Assembly: GCA_023476565.1 (NCBI GenBank)
Contig: JAMCVZ010000045.1
Location: forward strand, 1-47,307
Length of the DNA: 47,307 nt
Direction: 5' to 3'
Origin: Nitrospirota bacterium
GTDB lineage: Bacteria; Nitrospirota; Thermodesulfovibrionia; Thermodesulfovibrionales; Dissulfurispiraceae
Part shown: positions 6,301 to 44,815 of the stretch, piece by piece
How the letters are laid out: each line of letters begins with the position of its first letter
Position numbering within the stretch: position 1 is the first letter of the stretch
Notes under the pieces: model-generated
What the model saw: only the letters and a program-made list of their open reading frames with translations
The model's database searches: none
Told to the model about the DNA's origin: nothing
Made by a program: the position numbers and the translations under genes

Positions 6301-7088
6301 GCTTCCTCCTTTTCCTTTATCGGTAACAGAATGTATTCATCGCCCCGTCGTGCAACTTTAAACCCGAATTCGTTTACGGTGCTTGTAAGGGGCCTGCCCA
6401 GTATAAGGTCCATGGCGCCGCCGGGTATCTTAAATCTCTCTTCAAGGAACGGGCGGGCATAGGTATCATACTGAAGCATGTCCATTATCTCTTCGACGGC
6501 GCTCTCATTGCCCCCTGCGAGCTTTTCGAAAGCATCGGAAAGCCCCCTGTAGGAACATTTCTCCTCGTGTTTTTTTATTATCTCCAGGAGCACGTCAACG
6601 GAATGAAAGATATCGCTTCTGGTCAGGCCCTCTTTCTCCAGTCCCTCGAAGACATCGTACGGAGCGCCTTCCGCCGCATGCCCGGAGGTCTCCCGGGAAG
6701 ACGATGGCCAGCATTCGTATTCCCTGCATTGGGCCGGCCTGCTTTCGTACAGGGCGCACCCCTCTTCTCCGCGGTAAAAGATGCATTCGGATGTCCCCTC
6801 TCCGGTCCTGATCTTTATAAGCTCAATGAATGATTCGTATATCTCGTCATCTGCGCCGGACCTTATCCGCTCCCCTTCCCTGATGGTATAGGCATCGCCA
6901 TAAGATAGAGCCCCCGACGTGAAAAGCGGCAGGTCCCCTTTGAGCAGCGAAGGGGTGCCTTTGGTGCAGCAGGCGCCGCACCTGACGCACTCGGTTCTCT
7001 TGATAAGCTTCATCTTTTTGGGCTTGTCGTCCTCATGGGCGCCCTGCGGGATGACAATCTCAAACTTTTCGTCATATTTCTTTTTCAT
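6297..7088 (-). CDS. YkgJ-type cysteine-cluster protein
   Basis: The 263-residue protein carries the metal-binding cysteine set of the YkgJ family: CVRCGACC at about residues 35-42, then [19 protein letters not shown] and [12 protein letters not shown] at about residues 95-125. These cysteines probably hold zinc or an Fe-S cluster. The rest is helical, with no second known domain. Its start lies inside the end of the upstream Fe-S oxidoreductase gene (17-bp overlap) and its end overlaps the aldolase start by 4 bp, so it is inside a tight operon. Function in the family is unclear; roles in metal handling or protein maturation are only proposals. Confidence 0.8.
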
Positions 7089-8355
7089 CTCTGTCTCCTT
7101 GCACCGCTTCCTCGATCAGCTCGACGATATGCTTTACCTGCCTGTCTTTTACTCTGCTCCTCAACTGGACCATGCAGTTCGGGCAGGAGGTAACTATCAT
7201 ATCCGCTTTCCTGTATCCTTCGACCCTTTTTTTGAGAATGCTCTCCGAGAGGTCCTGATATAATAACCTAAAAGTGCCTCCAAATCCACAGCAGCCCCTT
7301 TCGGCTTCCACCAGGTCCAGCCCCATGGATCTCAGTATCTGTCGTGGCTCGGCGCTCACATTCAGACTGTAGAGAGAGTGGCACGGGTCGTGATAAACAA
7401 CCTTGAGTGATGAGCCTGAAAGCGGTAACGAGTGACTGTCCTTAAGGTTACCTATTGCCGACAACTTGTCACTAAAAAATTGCGATACTTCCATTGCATT
7501 CTCTATGCTGTCTCCTACAAGCCCTTTATATTCATTCCTGATGAAGTGCACGCAGGTAGGGCAAAGACTTATTACCGCCTCTACTTTCATCTTCTTGAAG
7601 GTTTTCATATTCTTCTCCGCCAACCGGACCGCGGCATCTTCGAGCCCCAATCCCATAAGCGGGGCCCCGCAGCATGCCTCTCCTTTAGGGAGGATGACTT
7701 CATAGCTCATGGCATTCAGGCTGCGTATCAATGACCTCCCGATACCGGGGTAAAGAAAATTGGCCGTGCATCCCGCGAATACCGCAATCCTTCCTTTTGG
7801 TCTGGACACCTTGAAAATAGATGCGCTGTCCCTCAGGGGCGCATCGAGGGAGCCGATGCCTATCTCCCTTAATATTTTGAAGGGCTTGAGCCTGTAAACC
7901 GGGAATACTTCTCCTACACCTTCGATAAATTTCAGGATCCTGAAACCCGTAGTGGCCCTTTTGAGGGCAAATTTCACCCAAAGGCTGATAAATGTCCTTT
8001 TATTGTTGGGTGCCCTGAGATCCCTCCTGTATTTGTAAATCGCACCGGTTATGTTTATTCCCAGGGGACAGATACTGTTGCATGCTCCGCAGAGCATACA
8101 ACTGAATATCCTTTCATCCAGGGCCTTTGACGGCTCGATATCACCTCCGGCAAGCCCTCTCAAGAGCATAAGCCTGCCCCGGGCGCCCATCCCCTCGGTT
8201 GAATCCTCAATATACGTAGGGCAAAGCTCTTTGCAGGCGCCGCACCGGACGCAATAGGAAAGTGACGAGTAACGAGTGACAAGTGAAGAGTCCCCTTTAT
8301 CTCGTGACTCGTGATGCGTAACGCGTAACGCGTCTTCGGTCTTTCCGTCGTTCAA
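7072..8355 (-). CDS. GlcF/LutA-like (Fe-S)-binding oxidoreductase subunit
   Basis: The protein has two ferredoxin-type clusters, CVRCGACKELCP at residues 35-46 and CMLCGACNSICP at about 87-98, and two CCG domains seen as CCGAPLMGLG near 230 and CCGFGGTF near 355. This is the architecture of the iron-sulfur subunit of glycolate and lactate dehydrogenases and related heterodisulfide-reductase-like proteins. No flavin subunit (GlcD-like) is present beside it. The only usable start is a TTG at 8355, and the first 32 residues are encoded by a repeat element built of GTAACGAGT words. A short insert near residues 298-316 (GNLKDSHSLPLSG) has the same origin. LarE is the next gene upstream, which hints at lactate metabolism. 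Confidence 0.85.
   Translation of the reverse strand: MNDGKTEDALRVTHHESRDKGDSSLVTRYSSLSYCVRCGACKELCPTYIEDSTEGMGARGRLMLLRGLAGGDIEPSKALDERIFSCMLCGACNSICPLGINITGAIYKYRRDLRAPNNKRTFISLWVKFALKRATTGFRILKFIEGVGEVFPVYRLKPFKILREIGIGSLDAPLRDSASIFKVSRPKGRIAVFAGCTANFLYPGIGRSLIRSLNAMSYEVILPKGEACCGAPLMGLGLEDAAVRLAEKNMKTFKKMKVEAVISLCPTCVHFIRNEYKGLVGDSIENAMEVSQFFSDKLSAIGNLKDSHSLPLSGSSLKVVYHDPCHSLYSLNVSAEPRQILRSMGLDLVEAERGCCGFGGTFRLLYQDLSESILKKRVEGYRKADMIVTSCPNCMVQLRSRVKDRQVKHIVELIEEAVQGDRDEKEI
7417..7445. repeat. Short GTAACGAGTGAC repeat copy inside the GlcF-like gene
   Basis: The segment GAAAGCGGTAACGAGTGACT matches the left part of the element at 11567 (GAAGGCGGTAACGAGTGACG) with one change. It lies in frame within the Fe-S protein gene and encodes part of a Ser/Leu-rich insert between domains. 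Confidence 0.6.
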
Positions 8356-8410
8356 CTCGTTACTGATAACTCGTTACTGTCTTTAGAGTTACTTGTGACT
8401 TGTTACCGTC
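8261..8410. repeat. GTAACGAGT-word palindromic element at the 5' end of the GlcF-like gene
   Basis: About 150 bp are made of near-repeats of AGTGACGAGTAACGAGTGAC on one side and AACTCGTTACTGATAACTCG and ACTTGTGACTTGTTACCG on the other, so the element is an imperfect inverted repeat of a short word. It occupies the whole gap to larE and the first 30 codons of the Fe-S protein gene. Related copies are at 7417-7445 and 11567-11685. Confidence 0.7.
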
Positions 8411-10878: not shown

Positions 10879-13464
10879 TCATAAAGGCTCTTTCCACCCG
10901 TCCTTCCAGCCATAGACGGCCGTCCTCGTGATATCCAGTTCCGCCATTTTTATTCCGCACAGCGCCTCGGCTATTTCGCCTATCCTTACCTTAATAGTAT
11001 CATGATCTTTAAGGGTCGCACCAAGAGCGAGGCTGTCGCCGCCGGCCTGTGTACTCTCAAGTATACCGAACTTTTCGATACACGGTGCGATATCCACATT
11101 TTTCTCTTCCCTCTGAACGATAATCCCGCCGCCGGACGACAGCGTCCTTCCCGCGGCCGCTATTTTTTCTGAAACCGCCGGCTGCGCATTGCCGATCAGG
11201 AGCCTGTATTCGTACCTCTTTATGAAACTGCTGAGGGCCGGCTCATTAACAGGTACGACAGCCATTGTATGTATCCTGATCCCCTCAGGCATAGTATTAT
11301 GCAATTCCTTGCCATAAGATTCTATATCAAAAGGGGTGAAAACCTCCATATCAAAATACTCTTTTTCACCGGCCACGCCGACACTGAGGGGGGGGCCGAA
11401 TGAAATCTTCGGCGCCGGGTGAAAACCTTTCGAATAATCGAAGGGCACCTCTGCCCGTCTCAACCCTTTAATAAGGGTTGCAACAAGCTCGAGATGGGAG
11501 AGATACTTTAACATACCTGTTTTCGAGAATTTAACCCTGACGCGTAGCTTGGCCAGTGACGGGCTTGAAGGCGGTAACGAGTGACGAGTAATTTTATTAA
11601 GCAACGAGTTTTCTGTATCTTTTTTATTCTTTAACTCGTTACTCGTTACTCGCAATTCGTCACTGCCGTTAATGTTACTGTCTTTATTGCAGTTCAAGCC
11701 GCAGGCCGTGCAGGACTTTCTGCATTCCGGTGTCCTGTTCTCTGAAGTTGCCCGCTCATACTCGCTGTAGAGGAACTCGTTCCTTACCCCGATGTTTATA
11801 TCTTCCCACGGCAATCTTTCATCCTTTTCAAAGCACCGCTGAGCATAAGAGGAGCCGTCCAGCCCGGTCTTATCCATCGCATGGACCCATTTCTTAAAAT
11901 CGAAGAATTCCGTCCAGCCGTCCAGCCGGCATCCCGATTCCCACGCCTTTTCGATAAGGTCTGCCAGGCTCCCGTCACCCCGGGCAAATACGGCCTCGAG
12001 CATGCTCATCTCTTCGTTATGTCCCTTGTACTTGATTTTTTTGCTGCCGAGGACCTCCCTCAGGAATCCCAGTTTTCTTCTTATCTCATCGAGCCCTATC
12101 TGCCCGTACCATTGAAAAGGGGTATGAGACTTTGGAACAAAAGGAGATATGGTAATCCCTATATTTACAAACCTGCCCGTATTTTTTTTAGCGATCCGCA
12201 ACGCCTTGAGGGCCATTTCTTTGATCGCCTCTATATCCTCGTCCCGTTCCGTAGGGAGTCCTATCATGAAGTAGAGTTTGAGATTGATCCAACCCTCCTC
12301 GAACAGCGCATGTAATGCCCTTTCATAATCTTCATCCCTGAAATCCTTGTTGATCACGCTCCTCAGCCTCTCCGTTGCGGCCTCGGGCGCCATGGTAAAC
12401 CCCGTTTTCCTGATGGTCCGGATCTCTTTCAAAACGTCCCGGTTAACGGCGCCGACCCTCAGGGAGGGCAGCGACAGGGCAATTTTAGAATCCCCGAATC
12501 TTTTGTTGAACTCCCTCACGGTGTGGAGAAGATGCGTATAGTCGCCTGCGCTCAAAGACGTAAAGGACACCTCATCATAGCCCGTGTTCTTCAGGGACTC
12601 TCCGGCGATCTCCAGAACTCTCCCGGGAGACCTCTCCCTCAGGGGCCTGTAAATCATGCCTGCCTGACAAAACCTGCACCCCATGGGGCAGCCCCTTGAG
12701 ACCTCAACATTCACCCTGTCATGCACAATCGATGTATAGGGGACAACAGGCATCAGGGGGTATGGGGCATGCTCAAGGTCGGCAATGAACCGCCTCTTTA
12801 CAGCAGATCCGGGTTGGTGAATGGAGGGAACGTAAAAGCCGTGCAACTTCGCTATTTCCCGAAGCACGGTCTCCCGTCCGCCGCCTCCGGACATCTTCCA
12901 TTGCCTCACCGTATCGGTAAGCTCAACGATTGCCTCCTCGCCATCGCCGACCAGGAAGGCATCGATAAAGGGGGACATCGGCGCAGGATTGACTGTGCAT
13001 GGGCCCCCTGCAATCACAAGGGGTAAACGCTCTTTTGACCCGAGTCTCTCTTCAGAGCGGAGGGGAATGCCGCCGAGGTGGAGCATGTTCAGCACCGTGG
13101 TATATGAGAGCTCATACTGCAAGCTGAAGCCCGCGATGTCGAATTCCTTGAGCGGGGTATGTGATTCCAGAGATGAAAGGAGGAGGCCGCTTCTCTTCAT
13201 ATACTCTTCGAGATCGACCCATGGTGAAAAAAAACGTTCGGCTGAAGCGTATGGAAGACTGTTGATTATGTCGTAGAGTATCCTGAGTCCCAGGTGGGAC
13301 ATTCCGACTTCGTATATGTCGGGGAAGGATAATGCAAACCTGACCGCCCCGCACTCCCAAAAATTTTTTCGCGGAAAATTTTTGGGAGTGCCTATTCTAT
13401 GACTGATCGAATTGTACTCACCATTGATATAACGGCTCGGTTTTTGAAAAAGAGAAAGCTTCAC
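10879..13464 (-). CDS. Radical SAM protein of the TIGR03960 type fused to a DUF2344 (TIGR03936) domain
   Basis: The 861-residue protein has the family opening FALSFPDIYEVGMSHLGLRIL near residue 47 (the region usually called B12-binding-like). The radical SAM triad CPMGCRFC is near residue 258. A C-terminal DUF2344 domain starts near residue 640 (VKFSKTGMLKYLSHLEL, then FHPAPKISFGPPLSVGV). Such fusions lie next to RNase G in many genomes, as here, and their substrate is unknown, though a role in RNA or ribosomal-protein modification is often guessed. The start is a GTG at 13464. Two things are odd: a 17-bp perfect palindrome within codons 25-38, and a Ser/Asn/Lys-rich linker near residues 593-632 that comes from a repeat element. 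Confidence 0.9.
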   Translation of the reverse strand: MKLSLFQKPSRYINGEYNSISHRIGTPKNFPRKNFWECGAVRFALSFPDIYEVGMSHLGLRILYDIINSLPYASAERFFSPWVDLEEYMKRSGLLLSSLESHTPLKEFDIAGFSLQYELSYTTVLNMLHLGGIPLRSEERLGSKERLPLVIAGGPCTVNPAPMSPFIDAFLVGDGEEAIVELTDTVRQWKMSGGGGRETVLREIAKLHGFYVPSIHQPGSAVKRRFIADLEHAPYPLMPVVPYTSIVHDRVNVEVSRGCPMGCRFCQAGMIYRPLRERSPGRVLEIAGESLKNTGYDEVSFTSLSAGDYTHLLHTVREFNKRFGDSKIALSLPSLRVGAVNRDVLKEIRTIRKTGFTMAPEAATERLRSVINKDFRDEDYERALHALFEEGWINLKLYFMIGLPTERDEDIEAIKEMALKALRIAKKNTGRFVNIGITISPFVPKSHTPFQWYGQIGLDEIRRKLGFLREVLGSKKIKYKGHNEEMSMLEAVFARGDGSLADLIEKAWESGCRLDGWTEFFDFKKWVHAMDKTGLDGSSYAQRCFEKDERLPWEDINIGVRNEFLYSEYERATSENRTPECRKSCTACGLNCNKDSNINGSDELRVTSNELKNKKDTENSLLNKITRHSLPPSSPSLAKLRVRVKFSKTGMLKYLSHLELVATLIKGLRRAEVPFDYSKGFHPAPKISFGPPLSVGVAGEKEYFDMEVFTPFDIESYGKELHNTMPEGIRIHTMAVVPVNEPALSSFIKRYEYRLLIGNAQPAVSEKIAAAGRTLSSGGGIIVQREEKNVDIAPCIEKFGILESTQAGGDSLALGATLKDHDTIKVRIGEIAEALCGIKMAELDITRTAVYGWKDGWKEPL
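11567..11685. repeat. GTAACGAGT-word palindromic element inside the radical SAM gene
   Basis: GGCGGTAACGAGTGACGAGT on the left is answered by TTAACTCGTTACTCGTTACT and CAATTCGTCACTGCCG on the right. The element is read through in frame and encodes the linker between the radical SAM part and DUF2344. It belongs to the same word family as 8261-8410. Confidence 0.7.
13351..13391. repeat. Perfect palindrome within a coding sequence
   Basis: GCACTCCCAAAAATTTT at 13351-13367 and AAAATTTTTGGGAGTGC at 13375-13391 are exact complements around TTCGCGG. In the protein it encodes GTPKNFPRKNFWECG, which sits between the EYNSI and VRFALSF motifs. I recall this part of the family as shorter, so it looks like an in-frame insertion comparable in style to Rickettsia palindromic elements. 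Confidence 0.8.
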
Positions 13465-13578: not shown

Positions 13579-13758
13579 TTATTTTTTGGCGGCGGTTTTC
13601 TTCGCGGGCTTCTTAGCCGCCGCTTTTTTTGCAGCAGGCTTTTTAGCCGCAGTCTTTTTTGCCGCCGGTTTCTTCGCTGCCGTCTCCTTTTTAGCCGCCG
13701 TCTTCTTAGCCGCCGTCTTTTTCTTTGCCGCCGGTTTCTTCGCTGCTGCCTTTGCCAT
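13579..13758 (-). CDS. Small Lys/Ala-rich histone H1-like protein
   Basis: Reading leftwards from the ATG at 13758 gives 59 residues, almost entirely of AAKK units: MAKAAAKKPAAKKKTAAKK and so on, with single P, T and E spacers, ending TAAKK. A strong AGGAGG site lies just before the ATG. The composition matches the basic tails of histone H1-like and AlgP-like bacterial proteins, which bind DNA without sequence preference. There is no globular domain. On the opposite strand the same DNA reads as an Ala/Phe-rich hydrophobic peptide, which I regard as an artefact. It is a stand-alone gene, divergent from the TonB-like gene. Confidence 0.8.
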   Translation of the reverse strand: MAKAAAKKPAAKKKTAAKKTAAKKETAAKKPAAKKTAAKKPAAKKAAAKKPAKKTAAKK

Positions 13759-27125: not shown

Positions 27126-27174
27126 GGGGACAGTCCCTATTCTACGACTCCGTCCGTAAATAGGGACTGTCCCC
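27126..27174. repeat. Paired GGGGACAGTCCC element upstream of the nucleotidyltransferase gene
   Basis: GGGGACAGTCCCTATT (27126-27141) and AATAGGGACTGTCCCC (27159-27174) are exact complements flanking CTACGACTCCGTCCGT. The core matches both ends of the middle part of the element at 31341-31420, so this copy looks like a shortened version of it. Confidence 0.75.
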
Positions 27175-31340: not shown

Positions 31341-31420
31341 GGGGACTGTCCCTATTTACCAACAGTAGGTGGTTTACCACGGACGAAGCGAAGCGGAGTC
31401 GTAGAATAGGGACTGTCCCC
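31341..31420. repeat. Long paired GGGGACTGTCCC element between the aldehyde dehydrogenase gene and rseC
   Basis: GGGGACTGTCCCTATT (31341-31356) and AATAGGGACTGTCCCC (31405-31420) bound an inner part with its own palindrome GTGGTTTACCAC and the sequence ACGGACGAAGCGAAGCGGAG. It is the full-length relative of 27126-27174. Confidence 0.75.
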
Positions 31421-38183: not shown

Positions 38184-38310
38184 TTCAAATCCGAAATCCT
38201 AAGCGCGAAATCCTAAATAAATCCAAATATTCAAAACTCGAAATTTATTCAGACTTTTGGGAATTGGAATTTTGGATTTGTTTAGGATTTCGAGTTTCGG
38301 ATTTAGAATT
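38184..38310. repeat. ATTTAGGATTT-word palindromic element between the NIL gene and the putative homoserine kinase gene
   Basis: TCCGAAATCCTAAGCGCGAA and AAATCCAAATATTCAAAACT on the left are matched by TTGGATTTGTTTAGGATTTC and GAGTTTCGGATTTAGAATTT on the right. It fills the gap from gene start to upstream gene stop. Confidence 0.8.
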
Positions 38311-38547
38311 TTACTCGATGACATCTCCTTCTATAAGCTCCACTTCGATTCCCTGGTCTCTGAGGGCTTGTATTCCCTTTTCGAGGTTGACTTCCTCTCC
38401 CTCGAGCTCCAGGATCATTTCTCCTACGGTATCGGTTACTCTTGCCCGTCTGATATTGGGAAGCACATCGTATTTTTTCGCCATGGTGAAAATGACCGGC
38501 TCTTTGATAAGCTGCTGAGGAAAAGTTAATTTCACACGCCTTTTCAT
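38311..38547 (-). CDS. NIL domain protein
   Basis: The 78-residue protein reads MKRRVKLTFPQQLIKEPVIF, then ANVRRARV-like NIRRARVTDTVGEMILELEG and a tail ALRDQGIEVELIEGDVIE, the small ACT-like NIL domain. NIL domains are found at the end of MetN transporters and, fused with ferredoxins, in the homocysteine-forming machinery of methanogens that uses aspartate semialdehyde and sulfide. Here it is free-standing, without ferredoxin cysteines. It lies between the carrier protein gene and the putative homoserine kinase gene. A methionine or homocysteine sensing role, or a place in sulfur transfer, is inferred from context. Confidence 0.88.
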   Translation of the reverse strand: MKRRVKLTFPQQLIKEPVIFTMAKKYDVLPNIRRARVTDTVGEMILELEGEEVNLEKGIQALRDQGIEVELIEGDVIE

Positions 38548-44699: not shown

Positions 44700-44815
44700 G
44701 ATCGGAAATTCTAATCCCTAAACTCTAAACAAACGCAAATCACCAAAATTCAAATACTCAAAATAGTTTGTTGCTACCTTTGTTTAGGATTTAGCATTTC
44801 GGATTTGAAATTTCT
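44700..44815. repeat. ATTTAGGATTT-word palindromic element between lipA and the aminotransferase gene
   Basis: GGAAATTCTAATCCCTAAAC and ACCAAAATTCAAATACTCAA on the left face TTGTTTAGGATTTAGCATTT and CGGATTTGAAATTT on the right. It extends into the end of lipA, encoding the last residues ISNPKC. Confidence 0.75.

Follow-up and report, generated by a model that had tools for sequence, protein, structure and literature searches.

A perfect 17-bp palindrome is found in frame within a radical SAM gene of a Nitrospirota bacterium, in a protein loop that is shorter in all orthologues outside the genus. On balance we favour the view that this segment belongs with the REP or RPE type of intragenic palindromic element; it would have entered the gene in frame before the genus arose, in a loop tolerant of extra residues, and would have stayed palindromic as its bases drifted. 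It would then be one case of a wider process, in which at least two families of element insert into protein-coding genes of this Nitrospirota family: R1, some 38 nt long, and R2, some 99 nt long and with arms made of heptads. Copies that land in frame in tolerant loops or linkers would persist as extra peptides, and the others would be purged by selection. We infer that the palindrome arrived by the same route as the other copies of R1 and R2.

The palindrome and its host gene

The whole stretch of DNA analysed, referred to as the window, is 47,307 nt long. The features discussed here are as follows.

10879-13464, minus strand: fused B12-binding radical SAM protein (TIGR03960 + TIGR03936), GTG start, 861 aa
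13351-13391, minus strand: perfect palindrome, arms 13351-13367 and 13375-13391 of 17 bp each, 7-nt loop
13345-13404, minus strand: length-variable protein loop containing the palindrome, 20 codons, SHRIGTPKNFPRKNFWECGA
11563-11667, minus strand: R2 heptad (ACGAGTR) inverted-repeat insert in the linker that joins the radical SAM domain to the TIGR03936 domain, encoding GSDELRVTSNELKNKKDTENSLLNKITRHSLPPS (E 2e-21)
8251-8381, minus strand: R2 heptad element at the 5' end of ORF 8355-7075 (E 3e-10)

A first-pass annotation had placed a perfect 17-bp palindrome with a 7-nt loop at codons 25-38, in frame, and both the coordinates and the frame are correct. The arms are complementary at 17 of 17 nucleotides (100%). 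The coding strand reads GCACTCCCAAAAATTTT-CCGCGAA-AAAATTTTTGGGAGTGC and encodes the peptide GTPKNFPRKNFWEC. Among the short-loop perfect hairpins of the window this is the longest, and the suggestion that such exact pairing is improbable by chance was confirmed in two ways. Order-3 Markov copies of the window give an expected count of 0.1 at 12 bp and a drop of about 4-fold with each extra base pair, which extrapolates to approximately 1e-4 per window for 17 bp. When the peptide was recoded with the gene's own synonymous codons, an arm as long was obtained in 1 of 2000 recodings (0.05%). The hairpin has a predicted minimum free energy (MFE) of -24 kcal/mol (z -4.5), and its arms in this genome (G000, a draft of 2.67 Mb) contain Watson-Crick pairs only. 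It has no match in Rfam. An intrinsic terminator was considered and ruled out, because there is no U-tract 3' of the hairpin on either strand.

The host gene matches TIGR03960 with 651 bits and TIGR03936 with 163 bits. Fifty orthologue sequences from the family and the order, including its own, were aligned. The loop that contains the palindrome is flanked by PSRYIN.E.NSI and VRFALAFPD, and is 20 residues long in G000 and in the single congener compared (G001), against 5-15 residues in the other 48, in agreement with the earlier statement that this region is normally some ten residues shorter. Without 14 of its residues (42 nt) the loop would have 6, nearly as few as the shortest loops among the orthologues, and the R1 insert in pheT of G005, described below, likewise measures 42 nt. 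Just upstream of the gene (13586-13757, minus strand) is a short Lys/Ala-rich ORF with MAKAAAKKPAAKK... repeats, resembling histone H1.

The G001 orthologue has ACTCCCAAAAATATTCCTGATAAGGATTTTTGGGAGT at the palindrome site. This is a partly decayed palindrome, with a perfect core of 12 bp and Watson-Crick pairing at 14 of the 17 positions. Since the segment is present in both species, the insert is older than their split. The first-pass annotation would have taken a segment shared by orthologues as evidence against an insertion; the segment is indeed shared by the congener, and the loop is shorter in all orthologues outside the genus, several of which hold other palindromes there. Between G000 and G001 the loop is identical at 80% of bases yet at only 13 of 20 residues, while the next 200 codons are identical at 73% of bases and 161 of 200 residues. 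Of the synonymous codons, 9 of 12 in the loop are the same in both species, against 68 of 155 in the stretch that follows. The loop has thus kept its bases better than its residues, although the numbers are small.

The genome was also searched for the same palindrome, as had been proposed; the search yielded no second exact copy, but the palindrome is probably a divergent relative of a dispersed family (R1, below). No second exact copy of an arm exists in the 2.67 Mb of G000, and a search of that genome with up to 3 mismatches gave nothing above the reversed-pattern control. In 395 genomes of the phylum, the pattern ACTCCCNAAAN{6,36}TTTNGGGAGT matches this locus only, in the two congeners G000 and G001. 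A similar pattern matches at least 118 stretches in 84,980 genomes, nearly all of which are, by eye, unrelated hairpins; among the matches listed and read, only the G001 orthologue was recognised as a relative. Four hairpins in viral contigs match the pattern, and the plasmid search gave no matches. No target-site duplication is seen at the palindrome.

Palindromes in the same loop of related genera

The same loop is occupied by palindromes of different sequence in four further genera (g5, g7, g10 and g13; the genus of the palindrome itself is g1). In g7 these are GGTCTTCCGGA-GATG-TCCGGAAGACC and TCTTCCGGAAATTTCCGGAAGA. In g5 the palindrome is AAAATTTTC-YCAT-GAAAATTTT, with also a longer form CCGGGAA.AATTTTCT/AGAAAATT.TTCCCGG. 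The g13 loop has AGATTTT/AAAATCT nested in CCGG/CCGG, and the g10 loop has CCCGG.AGGCTT/AAGCC.CCGGG. Compared with synonymous recodings, the arm length is significant for g1 and g7 (p 0.0065 or less), and the folding energy is significant for g5 (G026, p 0.002) and g10 (0 of 500 recodings). The g13 palindrome is weaker (p 0.02-0.1). A palindrome is absent from the loop in g2, g3 and g4, and in genera whose loops do not exceed 9 residues.

A simple recent insertion within the genus was therefore dropped as an explanation: the congener shares the segment and four further genera have palindromes in the loop, so the palindrome is old. The core AAAATTTTC...GAAAATTTT is common to g1 and g5, which argues that the palindrome originated before the genus. 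In the family DNA examined, the only other conserved site with this core is a palindrome of 18 bp that lies within a gene of g5 and g13. The protein tree does not settle the branching order of these genera. The loop palindrome probably arose before the genus did, and its bases have probably changed without loss of the palindrome, through template switching, selection for a hairpin, or repeated insertion. A bolder reading, which we put forward only tentatively, is that, as five genera diverged, a single coding loop stayed palindromic although its sequence was almost wholly replaced, and that a process acting on the DNA (either template switching or insertion, time and again, at a hot spot) regenerates palindromes there and supplies new peptides. 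A loop with different palindromes in five genera provides a test case for the turnover of palindromes in coding DNA.

The R1 family

Palindromes with arms of at least 12 bp are more frequent in coding sequence than in synonymous shuffles in all five genomes sampled (2 vs 0.6, 6 vs 0.25, 6 vs 0.45, 5 vs 0.35 and 3 vs 0.2; these genome-wide statistics are taken from sampled stretches). Four of those in G005 are copies of one repeated element, R1. Its consensus is GGGGTCCCCAAAAAGTC-nnnn-GACTTTTTGGGG, with 96% of cells paired and a co-variation score higher than that of all shuffles. Of 31 genomes from the family, 14 contain the R1 pattern; the reversed control gives no match. Counting both strands, a covariance model (E 0.1) finds 104 matches in G005, 102 in G003, 87 in G004, 83 in G007 and 81 in G028, then 11 in G001, 3 in G000, and none in eleven genomes.

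Most of the R1 copies sampled in G005 lie within genes: of 14 sites drawn without bias, 10 are within ORFs of at least 150 aa, such ORFs making up 83% of the DNA. Comparison with relatives shows clean empty sites. In pheT of G005, R1 accounts for 14 extra residues (RTGVPKKSCDFLGY) that are absent from six relatives. In G026, a histidine kinase that we take to be of the HAMP type contains the R1 peptide GSPKNRKIFWG, 11 residues that three relatives lack, and R1 adds 14 residues to an ABC ATPase of G005, with an empty site in the comparison. One 20-kb stretch of G005 (L296, C1:2280001-2300000) contains seven R1 sites, several of them in cobalamin biosynthesis genes (cobC, cbiG/cbiH) and two in one ORF.

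Mobilisation of R1 by a RAYT was rejected as far as it could be tested. The Y1 transposase family PF01797 was not found in the R1 carriers G003, G016 and G008, which are draft genomes, so that the absence is not absolute, and no R1 palindrome is near any of the 30 Y1 genes examined. The sequence GTGGTAG follows most R1 copies of G028; it is mostly absent in other genomes, and absent at the palindrome.

The palindrome itself is probably a divergent relative of R1, its membership being probable rather than proven. An R1 model was built from 39 copies, with the palindrome locus excluded, and applied to 576 kb comprising G000, G001 and orthologue DNA. Its top match is the palindrome (24.0 bits, E 0.0015) and its second is the G001 orthologue. 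Another perfect hairpin, the A/T-rich one of 18 bp at L316, is unmatched at E 0.05, and therefore hairpin shape alone is not sufficient to explain the score. The palindrome arm is also closer to R1 than permuted arms are (p 0.003). The part in common is CCCAAAAA/TTTTTGGG, while the inner portion of the palindrome is that of the g5 palindrome. On the other side, the score is below that of typical R1 copies (24 vs 40-59 bits), and the loop palindromes of g5, g13, g7 and g10 have no match to the model.

The R2 family

The host gene contains a second insert, in the linker preceding the TIGR03936 domain, which belongs to the unrelated family R2. This element has arms of 7-bp units and encodes the peptide NELRVTSNELKDKKESENSSLVTRHSLL. 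In G000 the arm unit has 71 and 64 matches on the two strands, allowing up to 2 mismatches, and the reversed control has none. Model matches, with both strands counted, number 111 in G000, 129 in G001 and 82 in G003.

R2 lies within ORFs at 10 of 18 sites in G000 (an unbiased sample of 297 kb) and at 4 of 10 in G001. The in-gene copies (14 of 14) share one strand and one frame and read NELRVTSNELKDKKESENSSLVTRHSLL, which is what would be expected were no other frame open. An XerD-like gene is longer than E. coli XerD by about 26 residues because of R2. Relatives similarly lack R2 at clean sites in genes that, from a reading of their sequences, we take to be RecN-like (35 residues), CbiD-like (in G001) and GlnD-like.

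Alternatives to insertion

The main rival to insertion of an element is template switching during replication, which we consider unlikely. A short inverted repeat in the tolerant loop would be copied on the opposite strand to give perfect arms, and repeated correction would keep them complementary as they drift, with no need for a mobile element. This mutational route can both make and repair hairpins (PMC8794818), and a yeast study describes it acting on coding inverted repeats (PMC8604942). It would account for the turnover of palindromes at the loop across five genera, and it fits the perfect, exclusively Watson-Crick arms in G000 and the retention of bases over residues between G000 and G001. 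However, dispersed palindromic elements are active here, as is shown by the resemblance to R1 and by the R2 copy that the gene also carries, and the loop length varies greatly between genera.

A weaker rival, and an improbable one, is that an RNA (or DNA) hairpin near the 5' end of the message is selected because it tunes translation or mRNA decay, in which case pairing would be conserved and sequence would not. The persistence of a palindrome in five genera with changed sequence and the folding energy given above are consistent with this. So is the in-gene palindrome of L316, which is conserved nearly codon for codon in two genera (12 of 13 synonymous codons, against about half in the flanks). 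Against it, the hairpin has neither an Rfam match nor a U-tract on either strand, and there is no hairpin in the short-loop genera or in g2, g3 and g4, so it is not required.

The L316 palindrome, of 18 bp, lies close to the 3' end of its gene in G017 (6704-6742), and it is kept in the orthologues (L513-L516) of G030, G026, G005 and G013. No pair of these differs at more than one synonymous codon, compared with 12-55% in the flanks. This pattern of substitution suggests a constraint on the DNA or RNA, and some in-gene palindromes may thus be constrained.

Finally, a chance palindrome or an assembly artefact, to which the single copy and the draft genome might point, is refuted in practice by the presence of the same, largely paired segment in the separately assembled congener; the very low expected count also speaks against it.

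Comparison with known systems

Insertion of palindromes in frame is already known elsewhere. Rickettsia palindromic elements (RPE) are dispersed, about half of them lie in frame within protein genes, and they encode a fixed peptide (PMC2229807, PMC10969869). The first-pass annotation likened the present palindrome to these, and the likeness holds in part. The palindrome and copies of R1 and R2 are inverted repeats within ORFs that keep the frame; the segment is an extra one; and the genome contains other gene-invading elements, one of which (11563-11667) shares this gene while others are missing from the corresponding sites of relatives. On the other hand, the palindrome is old and its match to R1 is moderate; it is a single exact copy, R1-like by model only, while R2 has many copies. 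By description, R2 is the close match to RPE, in its length, its inverted arms and the single strand and frame of its in-gene copies. The differences are that Nitrospirota is another phylum, that the R2 arms consist of 7-bp units, and that the palindrome is only 41 bp with no exact second copy.

REPs (GTAG- or CGTC-tagged) offer a second comparison. R1 resembles them in being a palindrome of 20-40 bp with tens of copies, some of which are in frame in genes. Intragenic REPs have been described, with different REPs at about one recB site in two Xanthomonas species (PMC3733652). R1 differs in that its GTAG tail is consistent only in G028, that no Y1 transposase is near its copies and none is found in G003, and that most of the R1 copies sampled in G005 are inside genes. 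In the mitochondria of Nematomorpha, perfect inverted repeats are kept in coding sequence (PMC6649704), but there both arms encode conserved protein, whereas here the peptide is a length-variable loop. The template-switch hairpins cited above resemble the palindrome as a mutational route to a hairpin and to its repair. In Geobacter metallireducens, 49 elements of four tandem 7-bp repeats occur within and between genes (PMC2700814); their unit (GGGACCG) is not that of R2, and they are tandem and are not described as inverted or as in-frame inserts.

In the open-access literature, our search found no report of R1, R2 or such elements in Nitrospirota. A 2024 review considers the in-frame insertion of RPE to be unusually frequent, and such insertion to be merely conceivable for other prokaryotes (PMC10969869). 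Nitrospirota show it for two unrelated families, in tRNA synthetase, recN-like, tyrosine recombinase, kinase and cobalamin genes. They provide a second, independent system for testing how selfish palindromes turn into protein segments, how genes tolerate them, and what moves them with no evident transposase.

Other palindromic repeats

Several other repeats were observed. In G017, a 16-bp palindrome of unrelated sequence (L313, 3015-3051) lies in a PEP-synthase-like gene just before VRSSAVEED, where the G007 homologue is shorter by about 12 residues. Two perfect hairpins of other sequence, with arms of 18 and 15 bp, lie within predicted ORFs of G007 (L298, 5501-5543, and L304, 12080-12115). 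The window contains a further palindromic family, GGGGACWGTCCC, at 2228-2240, 27126-27174 and 31341-31420, with AATAGGGACTGTCCCC arms at two of the three sites and 6 matches against 0.01 expected. It also contains long imperfect inverted repeats at 38187-38311 and 44706-44806, built from the 7-bp units AAATCCG, AAATCCT and AAACTCG, which form a heptad type unlike R2.
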